Shown here: positions 22,910 to 30,889 of the stretch, piece by piece
How the letters are laid out: every line of letters begins with the position of its first letter
How positions within the stretch are numbered: position 1 is the stretch's first letter
From: Sphingobium trunci
Lineage (GTDB): Bacteria; Pseudomonadota; Alphaproteobacteria; Sphingomonadales; Sphingomonadaceae
Length of the DNA: 64,000 bases
Direction of reading: 5' to 3'
Assembly (NCBI RefSeq): GCF_022664535.1
Contig: NZ_JAKUJY010000007.1
Coordinates: forward strand, 62,001 to 126,000
Made by a program: the position numbers and the translations under genes
Notes under the pieces: generated by a model
The model's input: the letters and a program-made list of their open reading frames with translations, nothing else
Databases searched by the model: none
What the model was told of the DNA's origin: nothing

Positions 22910-23842
22910 TTACAGGGCGCCCATCAACGCCAGCACCACGCCGCCCGCCACCAGCATCAGCCCCATGACCTCGCTGCGCGCCATTCGCTCGCCCAGGTAG
23001 AAATGGCCGAAGCCCAGGGTGAAGGCGACCTCGATCTGGCCGACGATCCGTACCAGCGCGACCGGCGCGGTGGCAAAGCCGGTGAACCAGCAGGCCGATC
23101 CCAGCGAGGACAGCAGCCCGACCTGCCCCGACACGCGCCAGCTGCGGAAGACCCGGCCGATCTGGTCCGGCTCGCGCAGCAGCATATAGCCGCCCTGCAT
23201 CACTGTCTGCATCGCCACCGTCACCACCAGCACGACCAGCGCGGCCCATATCGGATCGGCGCCCCCCACCGCCTGCGTCGCCCGCCTGATGCCGATGGCG
23301 GTCAGGGCGAAGAAAAAGCCCGATGCAATCCCGCACAGCGCCGCCGGCTGGCCGAGCGCCTTGGCGAAGTCCGCCACGCCCATCCGCCTGCCCCCGGTCG
23401 ACAGCAGCATGACGCCGATCACGCCGCAGCCGATTCCCGCCCAGGCCAGCGGATGCAGCCGCTCGCCCAGCAGCAGGAAGGACAGGATCGCGCCCTGCAC
23501 CGCCTCGGTCTTGGAATAGGCGGTGCCGACGACGAAATTGCGATGGGCAAACGCCATGATGAGCAGGTTGGTGGCAATGATCTGCGCCAGCCCGCCGCCC
23601 AGGCAGAAGAGCAGGAACAGCGGATCGGGCGAGGGCAGGGGCGCGGGAAACAGCAGCCGGTATCCGCCCAGCAGCAGCGCCGTGAAGGGCAGCCCGTAAA
23701 GATAGCGCACCAGCCCTGCGCCATTGACCGACAGGCTGTGGCTCACCCGCCGCTGCACCGCGGTCCGCCACGCCTGCACCCCGCCCGCCATCAATGTCGC
23801 GGGCAACCAGATCGGAAAACTCATGTCGCTACTCATACTCAT
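22910..23842 (-). CDS. DMT-superfamily (EamA-like) transporter
   Basis: An inner-membrane protein of about 310 residues with roughly ten hydrophobic spans and internal duplication typical of the drug/metabolite transporter family; substrate unknown. Candidate starts are ATGs at 23842, 23836 and 23824 (MSMSSDMSFPIW); an upstream non-ATG extension to 23881 would pass through the fumarase terminator hairpin and is unlikely. If 23842 is used, the start codon directly abuts the terminator T-run, so 23824 may be the true start. Confidence 0.82.
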   Translation of the reverse strand: MSMSSDMSFPIWLPATLMAGGVQAWRTAVQRRVSHSLSVNGAGLVRYLYGLPFTALLLGGYRLLFPAPLPSPDPLFLLFCLGGGLAQIIATNLLIMAFAHRNFVVGTAYSKTEAVQGAILSFLLLGERLHPLAWAGIGCGVIGVMLLSTGGRRMGVADFAKALGQPAALCGIASGFFFALTAIGIRRATQAVGGADPIWAALVVLVVTVAMQTVMQGGYMLLREPDQIGRVFRSWRVSGQVGLLSSLGSACWFTGFATAPVALVRIVGQIEVAFTLGFGHFYLGERMARSEVMGLMLVAGGVVLALMGAL

Positions 23843-23843
23843 G

Positions 23844-23877
23844 AAAAAACGCGCCGCTCGAAGACCGGGCGGCGCGT
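23844..23877 (-). terminator. Rho-independent terminator of fumarase gene
   Basis: Read on the minus strand: ACGCGCCGC, an 11-base loop, GCGGCGCGT, then a run of T's (AAAAAA on the plus strand at 23844-23849). A 9-bp GC-rich perfect stem plus T-tract, 29 bases after the fumarase stop. Confidence 0.85.
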
Positions 23878-23905
23878 CCAAATTCCAACGAAGGAGAAGA
23901 GACGC

Positions 23906-26685: not shown

Positions 26686-28620
26686 ATGGATTTTCGAGAT
26701 AGCGAACAGGTGAGTGCAAGCGACGTGGCAACCGTGATTGACGAAGTGGTCGAAACCGTGGCGGAAAAGAAGGCAACGCCAGCCCCGAAGGCTGACCCCG
26801 CGCCCAGCTCGTCTACCGTGCAGGAGCGCCGCTTCCACGTCGTGACGGACGACAGCCGCGACGCGCTGCTGACCGATTTCGGCAAGGACACGCTGCAGGA
26901 CCGCTATCTGCTGCCCGGCGAATCCTATCAGGATCTCTTCGCCCGCGTCGCCGCCGCCTATGCCGATGACGCGGACCATGCCCAGCGCGTCTACGACTAT
27001 ATCTCGCGCCTCTGGTTCATGCCCGCCACGCCCGTCCTGTCGAACGGCGGCACCGGCCGTGGCCTGCCGATCAGTTGCTATCTCAACAGCGTCGATGACA
27101 GCCTGGAGGGCATCGTCAACACCTGGAACGAGAATGTCTGGCTCGCCTCGCGCGGCGGCGGCATCGGCACCTATTGGGGCAATGTGCGCGGCATCGGCGA
27201 GCCGGTGGGCCTCAACGGCAAGACCAGCGGCATCATTCCCTTCGTCCGCGTGATGGACTCGCTGACCCTTGCGATCAGCCAGGGCAGCCTGCGCCGCGGC
27301 TCGGCCGCCTGCTATCTCGACATCTCGCATCCGGAGATCGAGGAGTTTCTGGAAATCCGCAAGACGTCCGGCGACTTCAACCGCAAGGCGCTGAACCTGC
27401 ACCATGGCGTCCTCCTCACCGACGAGTTCATGGAGGCGGTTCGCGACGGCAGGGAATTCGCCCTGCGCAGCCCCAAGGACCAGTCTGTGCGCGGCAGCGT
27501 CAATGCCCGTGCCCTGTTCCAGAAGCTGGTGGAGGTCCGCCTCGCCACCGGCGAACCCTATATCGTCTTCAACGACACCGTGAACCGCACGATGCCCAAG
27601 CATCATCGCGATCTCGGCCTCAAGGTGTCGACCTCCAACCTCTGCTCGGAAATCACTTTGCCGACGGGTCGCGACCATATCGGCAATGACCGCACGGCCG
27701 TCTGCTGTCTCTCCTCGCTCAATCTCGAAACCTGGGATGAGTGGAAGGACGACAGGCAGTTTGTCGAGGACGTCATGCGCTTCCTCGACAATGTGCTGCA
27801 GGACTATATCGACCGCGCGCCGCCGGAAATGGCGCGGGCGAAATATAGTGCGAGCCGTGAACGGTCGGTGGGCCTGGGGGTGATGGGGTTCCACTCCTTC
27901 CTCCAGGCCCGGGGACTCCCGTTTGAAGGCGCGATGGCCAAGTCGTGGAACCTGCGCATCTTCAAGCATATCAACGAGAAGGTGAACGAAGCCTCGATGC
28001 AGCTCGCGGTCGAGCGCGGCCCGTGCCCGGACGCCGCCGACATGGGCGTGATGGAGCGCTTCAGCTGCAAGATGGCGATCGCGCCCACCGCGTCCATCTC
28101 CATCATCTGCGGCGGCGCCTCGGCCTGCATCGAGCCGATCCCGGCGAATATCTACACCCACAAGACGCTGTCGGGCAGCTTCGCGGTCAAGAACCCGTAC
28201 CTTGAAAAGCTGCTGGTCGAAAAGGCGAAGGATTCGACGGCGGTCTGGAACTCGATCCTCGAAAAGGGCGGCTCGGTCCAGCATCTCGACTTCCTCTCCC
28301 AGGAGGAAAAGGACACGTTCAAGACCAGCTTCGAAATCGACCAGCGCTGGCTGCTCGAACTGGCCGCCGATCGCACGCCCTATATCGACCAGGCCCAGTC
28401 CCTCAACCTCTTCATCCCCGCCGATGTGGAGAAATGGGATCTGCTCATGCTCCACTACCGGGCGTGGGAACTGGGCATCAAGTCGCTCTACTATCTCCGC
28501 TCCAAGTCGGTCCAGCGCGCCGGCTTCGCGGGCGGCGTGGAGGCCGACAACACCATCGACGCCCCGAAATTCGAAATCGGCGAGACCACCGACTATGACG
28601 AGTGCCTCGCCTGCCAGTAA
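26686..28620 (+). CDS. nrdA: Ribonucleoside-diphosphate reductase alpha subunit
   Basis: Catalytic large subunit of class I ribonucleotide reductase, converting NDPs to dNDPs. 644 residues. Active-site features: GLPISCYLN and VCCLSSLNL (redox cysteines), STSNLCSEI (thiyl-radical cysteine), IAPTASISIICGGASACIEP, the tyrosine pair region KSLYYLRSK and a C-terminal thiol shuttle ECLACQ. Odd: the first about 50 residues are a low-complexity Ala/Pro/Glu tail instead of the roughly 90-residue ATP-cone that mediates overall activity control in many NrdA proteins. The 3' end overlaps the inferred start of the inserted DUF559 gene. Confidence 0.95.
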   Translation: MDFRDSEQVSASDVATVIDEVVETVAEKKATPAPKADPAPSSSTVQERRFHVVTDDSRDALLTDFGKDTLQDRYLLPGESYQDLFARVAAAYADDADHAQRVYDYISRLWFMPATPVLSNGGTGRGLPISCYLNSVDDSLEGIVNTWNENVWLASRGGGIGTYWGNVRGIGEPVGLNGKTSGIIPFVRVMDSLTLAISQGSLRRGSAACYLDISHPEIEEFLEIRKTSGDFNRKALNLHHGVLLTDEFMEAVRDGREFALRSPKDQSVRGSVNARALFQKLVEVRLATGEPYIVFNDTVNRTMPKHHRDLGLKVSTSNLCSEITLPTGRDHIGNDRTAVCCLSSLNLETWDEWKDDRQFVEDVMRFLDNVLQDYIDRAPPEMARAKYSASRERSVGLGVMGFHSFLQARGLPFEGAMAKSWNLRIFKHINEKVNEASMQLAVERGPCPDAADMGVMERFSCKMAIAPTASISIICGGASACIEPIPANIYTHKTLSGSFAVKNPYLEKLLVEKAKDSTAVWNSILEKGGSVQHLDFLSQEEKDTFKTSFEIDQRWLLELAADRTPYIDQAQSLNLFIPADVEKWDLLMLHYRAWELGIKSLYYLRSKSVQRAGFAGGVEADNTIDAPKFEIGETTDYDECLACQ

Positions 28621-29101
28621 CCCGATAATCTCCTCTCCCCTTGCGGGAGAGGAAGGGGCCCGCGCGGTGCAGCCGCGTGGGAAGGTGAGGGGTAAGGCCC
28701 CAAACCCGACGATCGCCCGGGCAAGGGAACTCCGCCGCAACGCAACCGACGCCGAGAAACGCCTCTGGACTTTGCTCCGCGAAAAGCTGCCTGCCGCGGA
28801 ATTCCGCCGCCAGGTCCCGATCGGCCCCTATTTCGCAGATTTCGCCTCTCATGCCGCCCGCCTGATCGTCGAACTGGACGGCGGTGGCCATGACGAAGCG
28901 ACGGACGCGCCCCGCACCGCCTTCCTCGAACGGGAAGGCTATCGCGTGATCCGCTTCTGGAACCATGACGTGATGCAGAATTCTGAAGGCGTGCTGGTCA
29001 CCATCGTCGGCGCCCTTCCCCCTCACCCTCCCACGCCTGACGGCGCGGGGCCCTCCCTCTCCCACAAGGGGAGAGGGTCTGGTATAAGTTTCGCGGAGTA
29101 A
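28595..29101 (+). CDS. DUF559 (endonuclease-like) protein inside the nrd operon
   Basis: A DUF559 protein of up to 168 residues, a PD-(D/E)xK-type nuclease relative (Vsr-like fold). The core runs from LRRNATDAEKRLWTLLREKL through FRRQVPIGPYFADF, LIVELDGGGHDEA and YRVIRFWNHDVMQN; the LIVELDGG aspartate/glutamate and VRQV-like glutamine region match the usual active site. The start is uncertain: ATG at 28595 lies inside nrdA, and GTGs at 28667 or 28685 fall in the left inverted repeat. N- and C-terminal tails are translations of the flanking repeats. The stop overlaps the GGAG ribosome site of nrdB. Cargo of the element at 28629-29083. Confidence 0.75.
   Translation: MTSASPASNPIISSPLAGEEGARAVQPRGKVRGKAPNPTIARARELRRNATDAEKRLWTLLREKLPAAEFRRQVPIGPYFADFASHAARLIVELDGGGHDEATDAPRTAFLEREGYRVIRFWNHDVMQNSEGVLVTIVGALPPHPPTPDGAGPSLSHKGRGSGISFAE
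28632..28697 (+). repeat. Left inverted repeat of DUF559 element
   Basis: Begins with CCTCTCCC-CTTGC-GGGAGAGG, an 8-bp hairpin, followed by a GC-rich segment ending GGTGAGGGGTAAGG. Reverse-complement partner is at 29014-29076. Confidence 0.8.
29014..29076 (-). repeat. Right inverted repeat of DUF559 element
   Basis: Reverse complement of the left arm with six substitutions and three gaps. Its hairpin is CCTCTCCC-CTTGT-GGGAGAGG on the minus strand; the only loop difference from the left copy is C/T. Confidence 0.8.
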
Positions 29102-29106
29102 CCACC

Positions 29107-30159
29107 ATGCCTCTTCTTCAAGCCAGCAAGGTCTACAAGCCCTTCGAATATCCCTGGGCCTATGAGTTCTGGAAGCGCCAGCAGCAGCTCCACTGGCTGC
29201 CGGAGGAAGTGCCGCTGGGCGAGGATTGCCGCGACTGGGCGCAGAAGCTCTCCGACCATGAACGCAATCTGCTGACCCAGATTTTCCGCTTCTTCACCCA
29301 GGCCGACGTGGAGGTGCAGGACTGCTACCACGACAAATATGGCCGCGTGTTCAAGCCGACCGAAATCAAGATGATGCTGACCGCCTTCAGCAACATGGAA
29401 ACGGTCCACATCGCGGCCTACAGCCACCTGCTCGACACGATCGGCATGCCCGAAACCGAATATTCGGCCTTCATGCAATATAAGGAGATGAAGGACAAAC
29501 ACGACTATCTGGCGCAATTCGGCGTCGACACGGACGAGGATATCGCCAAGACGCTGGCCATGTTCGGCGGCTTCACCGAAGGGCTGCAACTCTTCGCCAG
29601 CTTCGCCATGCTGATGAACTTCCCGCGCTTCAACAAGATGAAGGGCATGGGCCAGATCGTCAGCTGGTCGGTCCGCGACGAGACGCTGCACTGCGAAGGC
29701 ATCGTCCGCCTGTTCCACGCCTTCGTGAAGGAACGCGACTGCCTGACCGCCTCGGTCAAGGACGACATCATGGACATGTGCCAGAAGACGGTGCGGATCG
29801 AGGACGCCTTCATCGACCTCGTCTTCGAAATGGGTCCGGTGCCGGGCATGACGCCCAAGGACATCAAGAAATATGTCCGCTACATCGCCGACTGGCGCCT
29901 TGGGCAACTGGGCCTGAAACCCATCTACATGATCGACGAGCACCCGCTCCCCTGGCTGACCCCGCTGCTGAACGGCGTCGAGCACGCCAATTTCTTCGAA
30001 ACCCGCGCGACGGAATATTCGAAGGCGGCCACCCGCGGCCAGTGGAACGACGTATGGGACGCCTTCGACCGCCGCACCAAACTCAAGAGCAGCACCGCCG
30101 CCAACGCCGACGAAAGCGACCCGGACATGTTCAAGGCAGCGGGCATCGCGGCGGAGTAA
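29107..30159 (+). CDS. nrdB: Ribonucleoside-diphosphate reductase beta subunit
   Basis: Radical-generating small subunit of class I ribonucleotide reductase. 350 residues, ferritin-like helices. Metal ligands and radical site: NMETVHIAAYSHL supplies Glu98, His101 and Tyr105 (the tyrosyl-radical position), FGGFTEG a second glutamate, and SWSVRDETLHCEG a glutamate/histidine pair. There is no N-terminal ATP-cone. ATG follows GGAG at 29096-29099, which is shared with the end of the DUF559 frame, so the insertion left nrdB translation intact. Confidence 0.96.
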   Translation: MPLLQASKVYKPFEYPWAYEFWKRQQQLHWLPEEVPLGEDCRDWAQKLSDHERNLLTQIFRFFTQADVEVQDCYHDKYGRVFKPTEIKMMLTAFSNMETVHIAAYSHLLDTIGMPETEYSAFMQYKEMKDKHDYLAQFGVDTDEDIAKTLAMFGGFTEGLQLFASFAMLMNFPRFNKMKGMGQIVSWSVRDETLHCEGIVRLFHAFVKERDCLTASVKDDIMDMCQKTVRIEDAFIDLVFEMGPVPGMTPKDIKKYVRYIADWRLGQLGLKPIYMIDEHPLPWLTPLLNGVEHANFFETRATEYSKAATRGQWNDVWDAFDRRTKLKSSTAANADESDPDMFKAAGIAAE

Positions 30160-30169
30160 GATATGAGAC

Positions 30170-30204
30170 GGCAAGTGTGGATTACCGATAAATCCGCATT
30201 TGCC
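30170..30204 (+). terminator. Strong hairpin after nrdB
   Basis: GGCAAGTGTGGATT (30170-30183) pairs fully with AATCCGCATTTGCC (30191-30204) when two G-U pairs are allowed: a 14-bp stem with a 7-base loop, starting 11 bases after the nrdB stop. There is no T-run, so it may stop transcription only with Rho, or protect the mRNA 3' end. Confidence 0.5.
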
Positions 30205-30241
30205 GATTGATCCGAGAATCCTGTTCTGCCAAGATCTTCTT

Positions 30242-30889
30242 ATGTTCCCTGAAAGCGATCTGCTCGAAGCCCATGCCGATCTCCTGCGAGCCGCCAGGGG
30301 ACAGAAATTTGGGACTATCCTTGCTGACCCTCCATGGCAGTTCCAGAATCGGACTGGTAAGGTCGCACCGGAGCATAAGCGGCTCAATCGCTATGGCACC
30401 ATGACGCTAGATGAAATCTGCGCTTTGCCTGTCGCACAGATTGCTGACGAACCATCTCATTTGTACCTGTGGGTGCCCAACGCACTGCTACCGGAAGGCA
30501 TGCAGGTAATGAATGCGTGGGGGTTTCGATACATCTCCAATCTCGTTTGGCACAAGGTCCGCAAGGATGGCGGATCGGACGGGCGCGGCGTCGGTTTCTA
30601 CTTCCGCAACGTCACCGAACTGCTGCTCTTCGGAGTGCGCGGGAAGAATGCCCGCACCCTTGCGCCCGGCCGCAGTCAGGTCAACATGATCCAGACACGC
30701 AAACGCGAACATAGTCGCAAACCTGATGAGCAATATGATATTATCGAGGCCTGCTCATGGGGACCGCGGCTTGAAATGTTCAGTAGGGGCGCACGCAAGG
30801 GATGGGACGTGTGGGGCAATCAAGCCGACGAAAGCTATAAGCCGACATGGGAAACTTATAGCTACAACAGTGCTGTTGCTGCCGAATAG
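30242..30889 (+). CDS. MT-A70 family DNA adenine methyltransferase
   Basis: A 215-residue N6-adenine methyltransferase of the MT-A70 family. The catalytic motif DPPW is in ILADPPWQF (about residue 27), followed by RYGTMTLDEICALP, YLWVPNALLPEG, NLVWHKV and the SAM-motif region VTELLLFGVRGK. An alternative TTG start at 30200 lies inside the nrdB hairpin and is unlikely. GC content is lower than in the neighbouring genes. Its TAG abuts (TAGCTA) the stop of a BglII-family endonuclease gene on the other strand, which makes it the likely protective half of a restriction-modification pair. Confidence 0.88.
   Translation: MFPESDLLEAHADLLRAARGQKFGTILADPPWQFQNRTGKVAPEHKRLNRYGTMTLDEICALPVAQIADEPSHLYLWVPNALLPEGMQVMNAWGFRYISNLVWHKVRKDGGSDGRGVGFYFRNVTELLLFGVRGKNARTLAPGRSQVNMIQTRKREHSRKPDEQYDIIEACSWGPRLEMFSRGARKGWDVWGNQADESYKPTWETYSYNSAVAAE

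Follow-up and report, generated by a model that had tools for sequence, protein, structure and literature searches.

A DUF559 nuclease gene framed by inverted hairpin arms in nrdA-nrdB: a probable REPtron-like partnership of a Vsr-type enzyme with folded DNA repeats

Introduction

The intrastrand triplex motif of bacteria was called PIT in older papers, and RSA is the name for the E. coli repeats. It has 23 copies in MG1655, occurs in over 260 genomes and forms triplexes in vitro; the repeats are tied to local instability in E. coli, earlier work cited in the same article gave no promoter or terminator activity for them, and its authors found no mobility gene nearby (PMC4666352). Among the closest described systems is the REPtron (RAYT/TnpA-REP), defined in PMC8266576. 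On the enzyme side, E. coli YcjD was predicted to be a PD-(D/E)XK protein in 2005 (PMC1189080), and the EDxHD enzymes have been described as a homing family (PMC3943268). In the open literature, with subscription papers and preprints mostly outside the scope of the search, we found no paper joining DUF559 or ycjD with these repeats.

Here we describe a locus in a 64,000-nucleotide stretch of the Sphingobium trunci genome (contig NZ_JAKUJY010000007.1, positions 62,001 to 126,000; hereafter the window). A first-pass annotation, made from the sequence alone, had pointed to a DUF559 nuclease gene between inverted repeats inside the nrdA-nrdB operon and had proposed that repeats and gene form one small mobile unit.

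Results

The nrdA-nrdB locus

The features of the locus, in window coordinates, are as follows.

23815 to 23904, no strand: place without a unit in the window, where eight genus loci have another DUF559 unit of a different arm type (locus comparison)
26686 to 28620, forward: nrdA, upstream host gene (open reading frame; name from the first-pass annotation and the nrdA-nrdB comparison)
28632 to 28697, forward, which is the purine-rich strand: left arm, with two hairpins
28632 to 28652, forward: outer hairpin of the left arm, 8-bp stem, loop CTTGC (single-stranded DNA fold)
28659 to 28681, forward: second hairpin of the left arm, 9-bp stem, G.T pair 28662/28678 (fold)
28682 to 28697, forward: inner purine tract of the left arm, AAGGTGAGGGGTAAGG, containing the GTG start 28685 (sequence)
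28685 to 29101, forward: DUF559 (Vsr/EDxHD-type) nuclease gene, GTG at 28685, TAA at 29099-29101 (PF04480, active-site residues, 3hrl and 3r3p)
28715 to 29014, forward: DUF559 domain match (profile search; contig coordinates C67:90715-91014)
29014 to 29076, reverse, which is the purine-rich strand: right arm, inverse complement of the left arm
29030 to 29049, reverse: second hairpin of the right arm, other sequence, pairing kept, G.T at the same pair (fold)
29056 to 29076, reverse: outer hairpin of the right arm, loop CTTGT (fold)
29107 to 30159, forward: nrdB, downstream host gene, GGAG at 29095-29098 (open reading frame; present in 57/61 relatives)

The arms are 63 to 66 bp long and are inverse complements at 57 of 66 aligned columns (28632-28697 against 29014-29076), the same count as reported earlier. 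Their local alignment score was 41, against a maximum of 18.5 among 3931 random placements made elsewhere in the window at similar distances. In single-stranded DNA folding, each arm gave the 8-bp outer hairpin with a near-identical loop that the first-pass annotation had described, together with a second hairpin of 9 or 8 bp that it had not remarked, the sequence of which is unlike between the two arms while the pairing is retained; among shuffled sequences, 0/200 and 1/200 folded as well. The statements that the ends of the gene are translated from the repeats and that nrdB keeps its GGAG site also held up, as the in-frame starts closest to the domain (GTG 28685 and the alternative GTG 28667) both lie inside the left arm, the C-terminus is encoded by the right arm, and GGAG stands at 29095-29098. 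A pattern search of the 64 kb for CTCCC-n(2-8)-GGGAG hairpins returned none besides the window arms, and inspection of both arms revealed neither a GTAG nor a CTAC tetranucleotide.

An open reading frame of the MT-A70 methyltransferase family lies downstream of nrdB (30200-30889; PF05063, E 3.5e-30); the family is adenine-type, and this was the one methyltransferase gene identified near the unit. The window gave no match to a known Rfam RNA at the gathering score.

The DUF559 enzyme

The 138-amino-acid window protein matched DUF559 in a Pfam profile search (PF04480, E 4.8e-35), with no second domain above the Pfam cut-off; a match to MTES_1575 fell below its cut-off. Sequence profiles searched against structures returned 3hrl (NGO0050) at E 4e-35 and 3r3p (the homing endonuclease I-Bth0305I) at E 3.5e-4. 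The same two were again the best hits of a fold search with an AlphaFold2 model of the protein (mean pLDDT 84), 3r3p now at E 6.6e-6, and Vsr followed at ranks 9 and 11 (1cw0, E 4.5e-3; 1vsr, E 1.0e-2). The residues E24, D52, D65, H69 and D74 were invariant across 34/34 sequences, and dN/dS among the nrd-site copies had a median of 0.16 over 15 pairs. The window gene is intact and under purifying selection. No PADLOC defence family matched the protein.

Arms and DUF559 genes in the S. trunci genome

The assembly (G000; 4.67 Mb in 83 contigs) holds three DUF559 genes, all flanked by inverted hairpins, each pair being of its own type. The pattern CTCCCNN{0,6}GGGAGNGG matched 61 times in this genome, compared with 11 for the backward control, and the matches listed fell by our count into 36 distinct places, six of them at DUF559 genes. 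The remaining 30 of 36 hairpin places have no DUF559 gene. The first-pass annotation had held that arms mostly lying apart from DUF559, combined with DUF559 genes lacking arms, would speak against its proposal; the former is what we found, as for REPs, whereas armless DUF559 genes are a minority.

When the genome was searched for full-length arm similarity, one clear extra copy appeared besides the two arms of the unit, within ileS. This solo arm (L006, C1:392637-392697) lies in frame inside a 994-codon open frame of the tRNA-synthetase family, the reading frame having been checked in the S. trunci genome. The same ileS stretch in other species is occupied by arms, by a pair of arms or by a CACCCCAGCGAAAGCTGGGGTC-type repeat unrelated to them.

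Survey of the genus

DUF559 was present in 56 of 61 genus genomes, in 1 to 8 copies (191 matches). Arms were assessed by aligning the 300 bp upstream of each gene with the reverse complement of the 300 bp downstream, at 96 distinct loci that cover about half of the 191 matches and form a non-random sample (the best-scoring loci, supplemented by 20 chosen by hand, 7 of which share one site). Matched arms were found at 91/96 loci with a score of at least 15 and at 87/96 with at least 18; sequence 600 to 900 bp further out at the same loci gave 0/94. Mismatched pairs of loci also scored high (128/480 at a score of at least 15) because the arms share a consensus. One locus (L111) has a DUF559 gene with inverted flanks of about 120 bp that lie outside the usual arm types.

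The 96 loci make up 23 site groups. On the protein tree the site changes 25 times, and the arm type, as set by regular expressions of our own making that leave 14/96 loci as "other", changes 13 times. With 25 site changes for 23 site groups, units within the genus are largely inherited in place. Arm distance was correlated with protein distance when one locus per site was used (n = 22, r 0.41 to 0.56), and 0/500 permutations reached as high a value in each of 20 draws. One enzyme clade retains the same arms across five sites.

The hairpin CCCTCTCCC-n-GGGAGAGGG occurred in 54/61 genus genomes. It was absent from 5/5 genomes that have no DUF559 and from 2/56 that have it (p 3.5e-6), a contrast that follows lineages, so that its data points are not independent; the sampled units of the two hairpin-free genomes with DUF559 are of other arm types. 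Counts of DUF559 and of hairpins per genome were correlated (rho 0.62), in part because DUF559 genes add their own arms to the hairpin count. Several genomes also have two inverted hairpins separated by about 90 bp, too little to accommodate the gene. The HUH family Y1_Tnp was found in 17/61 genus genomes, 37 of the 54 that bear hairpins having none, and a profile search of the S. trunci genome gave no match to it.

Survey across phyla

The unit had been presented as a sphingomonad matter, a framing that proved too narrow: arms and DUF559 recur in many phyla. A wider sample was drawn as the best 80 of at least 567 relatives from species genomes, of which 76 were usable; L195, L215 and L241 were set aside for short flanks, and L208, which has a run of N, was left out of the counts. 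By record titles it includes Alpha-, Beta-, Gamma- and Deltaproteobacteria, Chloroflexi, Nitrospira, Dadabacteria, Omnitrophota and others, many of them metagenome-assembled genomes. Matched arms were present at 61/76 loci with a score of at least 15 and at 56/76 with at least 18. The corresponding values were 2/69 and 0/69 for the outer control, 4/359 and 2/359 for other open reading frames in the same loci, and 95/385 and 49/385 for mismatched pairs. Arm and protein distances were weakly correlated across phyla (n = 56, r = 0.17; 1/5000 permutations). At two loci (L249 and L335) an inverted arm pair, instead of a single arm, stands on each flank of the DUF559 gene.

A DUF559 relative was contained in 38 plasmid and 2 phage records. 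Six records of the plasmid collection were inspected; one had matched arms on both sides and the rest were one-sided or degenerate. Among the inspected records, those of Azospirillum and Neisseria had the left arm only and that of E. coli the right arm only.

Arm structure and the triplex repeats

In sequence and layout, the DUF559 arms appear to belong with the published intrastrand triplex repeats: the inner purine tract of the left window arm is the counterpart of the GGGTGAGGG block of that motif (PMC4666352). Among genus arms a mirror purine block was present in 67/84, against 0.34 in shuffles, and four G-runs in 49/87, against 0.03. A strict triplex pattern occurred in 37 of 199 Pseudomonadota genomes (backward control, 0). 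DUF559 was present in 31/37 of these and in 44/162 of the others (p 2.3e-10), and the contrast grew stronger when 17 weak DUF559 matches were removed (30/37 against 28/162). Six triplex-bearing genomes (G116, G257, G133, G102, G138 and G169, with 3 to 35 matches on both strands) gave no DUF559, profile search included; they may have lost the gene, or the repeats may have had another spreader. The S. trunci genome has 0 copies of the strict motif because its arms have a hairpin in place of the short second loop, or are of other sub-types.

In the second hairpin, the fourth pair is G.T in 19 of 33 distinct well-registered stems and otherwise G-C or A-T, and the stem sequence varies while the pairing is kept. 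On the purine strand, G.T occupies this pair in 16/24 left arms and 13/21 right arms, and A.C in 0/45. Arm structure is conserved on one DNA strand. A right arm read as mRNA would contain A.C, so the occurrence of G.T on the purine strand of both arms speaks for a putative constraint on the DNA and not on the mRNA of the gene; gene conversion between the arms could also cause the strand pattern.

ycjD and the E. coli repeats

In E. coli, ycjD is annotated as a DUF559 gene, and a triplex motif lies between ycjD and fabI in MG1655. This motif presumably corresponds to row 9 of the table in PMC4666352, given identity over 36 letters and a compatible map position. The sapF-ycjD-fabI stretch was at least 80% present in 3362/5426 E. 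coli genomes, and genomes without it have an efflux operon in its place (PMC12817139). Repeats were counted in an even sample of 60 rows, from which the in-between rows H136-H138 were excluded: 35 genomes with the full ycjD stretch had 12 to 23 repeat places and the 22 of lowest coverage had 1 to 11 (p 2.5e-10), a contrast that again follows lineages and does not consist of independent points. In strain HH97 (L345) ycjD is annotated as frameshifted, with a rearranged repeat downstream.

The nrd site and insertion borders

Among 30 same-genus nrdA-nrdB loci, with gaps of 62 to 926 bp, 7 have a DUF559 unit (S. trunci included), 4 a hairpin alone and 19 neither. As 23 of the 30 loci are without the unit, nrd sites without the gene do exist, which answers one half of the comparison proposed in the first-pass annotation; its other half, the exact boundaries, yielded no clean border. 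At the second place, 5.3 kb upstream, where eight genus loci have the unit of a different arm type, the window has an empty place (23815-23904) containing a terminator-like hairpin, and this empty place also looks like a replacement. Across the genus, in comparisons that rest on one genome per species, no clean insertion of a whole unit was found, and exact borders could not be read at ileS, at nrd or at the flank of L103, a conserved gene region split by inserts.

Four presence/absence places were compared in E. coli, and none gave a clear case of a clean insertion. Three (hrpB-mrcB, adk-hemH and nrdA-nrdB) are replacement-like; the fourth, pstB-pstA, has a 92-bp difference with an 8-bp direct repeat, for which deletion is also possible. 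Strain KTa008 has a triplex motif in its nrdA-nrdB gap (L342, 878-985), the same gap as in the window, where the three other E. coli examined differ.

Discussion

A partnership between the nuclease and hairpin/triplex repeats is well supported: the arms form an inverted pair around the gene, the arm type tracks the enzyme clade, and repeats are commoner where the gene is present. Repeats and gene do belong together, as had been proposed, given matched arms at 91/96 genus and 56/76 wider loci and at all three S. trunci genes, the 23 site groups and the nrd sites without the gene. The further proposal that the whole unit moves fared less well, as units are mostly inherited in place and no clean insertion was found. 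We consider that the locus probably represents a REPtron-like DUF559/repeat partnership that spreads by cut-and-copy, with an enzyme unrelated to RAYT, cleavage and copying being the parts that we infer.

Chance has a negligible part in this arrangement. Two unrelated terminator-like hairpins could frame a gene, GC-rich hairpins being common, and the counts refute it for this one (a score of 41 against at most 18.5 in 3931 placements; 91/96 loci against 0/94). The earlier work cited by PMC4666352, in which triplex motifs acted neither as promoters nor as terminators, also speaks against it. A RAYT/HUH transposase mobilising ordinary REP elements would account for the palindromes, the inverted pairs and the intergenic sites, but is very improbable and for this genus largely refuted: Y1_Tnp is missing from the S. 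trunci genome and from 37/54 hairpin-bearing genomes, being found in 17/61 overall, and the window arms contain neither GTAG nor CTAC. Another agent might instead spread the hairpins, and recombination at these break-prone structures would then leave DUF559 genes trapped between two copies. Such hitch-hiking would account for the 30 of 36 S. trunci hairpin places that lie apart from DUF559, for the six repeat-bearing genomes that lack the gene, for the presence/absence sites that are replacements and for the local instability linked to triplex repeats in E. coli (PMC4666352). We regard it as quite unlikely, since other open reading frames in the same loci are hardly ever framed (2/359), arms co-vary with the enzyme, and repeats are scarce where DUF559 is absent.

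A resident Vsr-like nuclease, acting in DNA repair or structure clearing on T.G mismatches or folded repeats, is an unlikely explanation, if a more serious one; the arms would then be its substrate or control sites of its own gene, and nothing would be mobile. Purifying selection and inheritance in place agree with it, and an enzyme of the Vsr kind could act on the fixed G.T pair. A DUF559 domain is also present in Caulobacter VsrA (CCNA_02930), a protein linked to a cytosine methyltransferase and a DNA-damage response (PMC12907096); its five proposed active-site residues have nearly the window spacing, the first step being 28 instead of 29 and the rest equal. A resident enzyme is hard to reconcile with the patchy, multi-copy distribution of DUF559 (56/61 genomes, 1 to 8 copies), and with the same arms at different sites and gene-free arm copies, even within the ileS frame. 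Borders that look like replacements are more in keeping with break repair and local exchange than with transposition, and also fit break-prone repeats with a passenger gene.

For the cut-and-copy partnership, we propose as the most economical mechanism one in which the arms are read by the nuclease and copied through its action. DUF559 would recognise the folded arm through its outer hairpin and inner purine block and, in the window variant, also through the second hairpin with its G.T pair. It would then nick or cut DNA at or near arms. During repair of the break, a single arm, two inverted arms or the complete gene unit would be copied into the cut site, at the expense of some of the intergenic DNA there. 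Arms that stand alone or in pairs would be by-products of the enzyme, in the way that REPs are by-products of RAYT. Its intergenic position and the intact ribosome site downstream would explain why operons such as nrdAB tolerate the unit.

On a wider and distinctly tentative view, DUF559 enzymes could be the missing mobilisers of bacterial triplex repeats and form a mobile partnership of a new class: a compact Vsr-type nuclease would read the folded arm (hairpin, purine block and T.G pair) and spread it by cut-and-copy, YcjD would do so, or once have done so, in E. coli, and the EDxHD homing and Vsr repair enzymes would be cousins of an enzyme that spreads REP-like repeats. The link gives the triplex repeats of more than 260 genomes, E. 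coli K-12 included (PMC4666352), a testable cause, and E. coli ycjD a function to test. DUF559 would be an unrelated enzyme that solves, for a second time, the task thought to fall to RAYT in the case of REPs. The link also connects Vsr mismatch repair with homing endonucleases.

Among known proteins, Vsr, Caulobacter VsrA, E. coli YcjD and NGO0050 (3hrl) have the same fold as the window protein, YcjD and VsrA being DUF559 proteins themselves; the accessible part of the literature does not describe arms for them. I-Bth0305I, an EDxHD homing endonuclease, resembles the window protein detectably in sequence and fold and shares the E-D-x-H-D residues, but, unlike the EDxHD homing endonucleases, the window gene is not in an intron, has no added DNA-binding domain that we found and has arms instead of a unique target. 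The TM/TMECO triplex motif (PMC4666352) likewise consists of a CCCTCTCCC..GGGAGAGGG hairpin followed by GGGTGAGGG, occurs in inverted pairs and is intergenic, and the motif itself is found beside ycjD and many DUF559 genes; it differs in its short second loop, where the window arms have a hairpin. The REPtron differs in its HUH transposase and GTAG tag, whereas DUF559 is a PD-(D/E)XK Vsr-type hydrolase, often multi-copy and without GTAG. In both systems, inverted palindromes flank the gene, solo palindromes outnumber the genes, enzyme and repeat co-vary, and repeat number is linked to the presence of the gene (PMC8266576).
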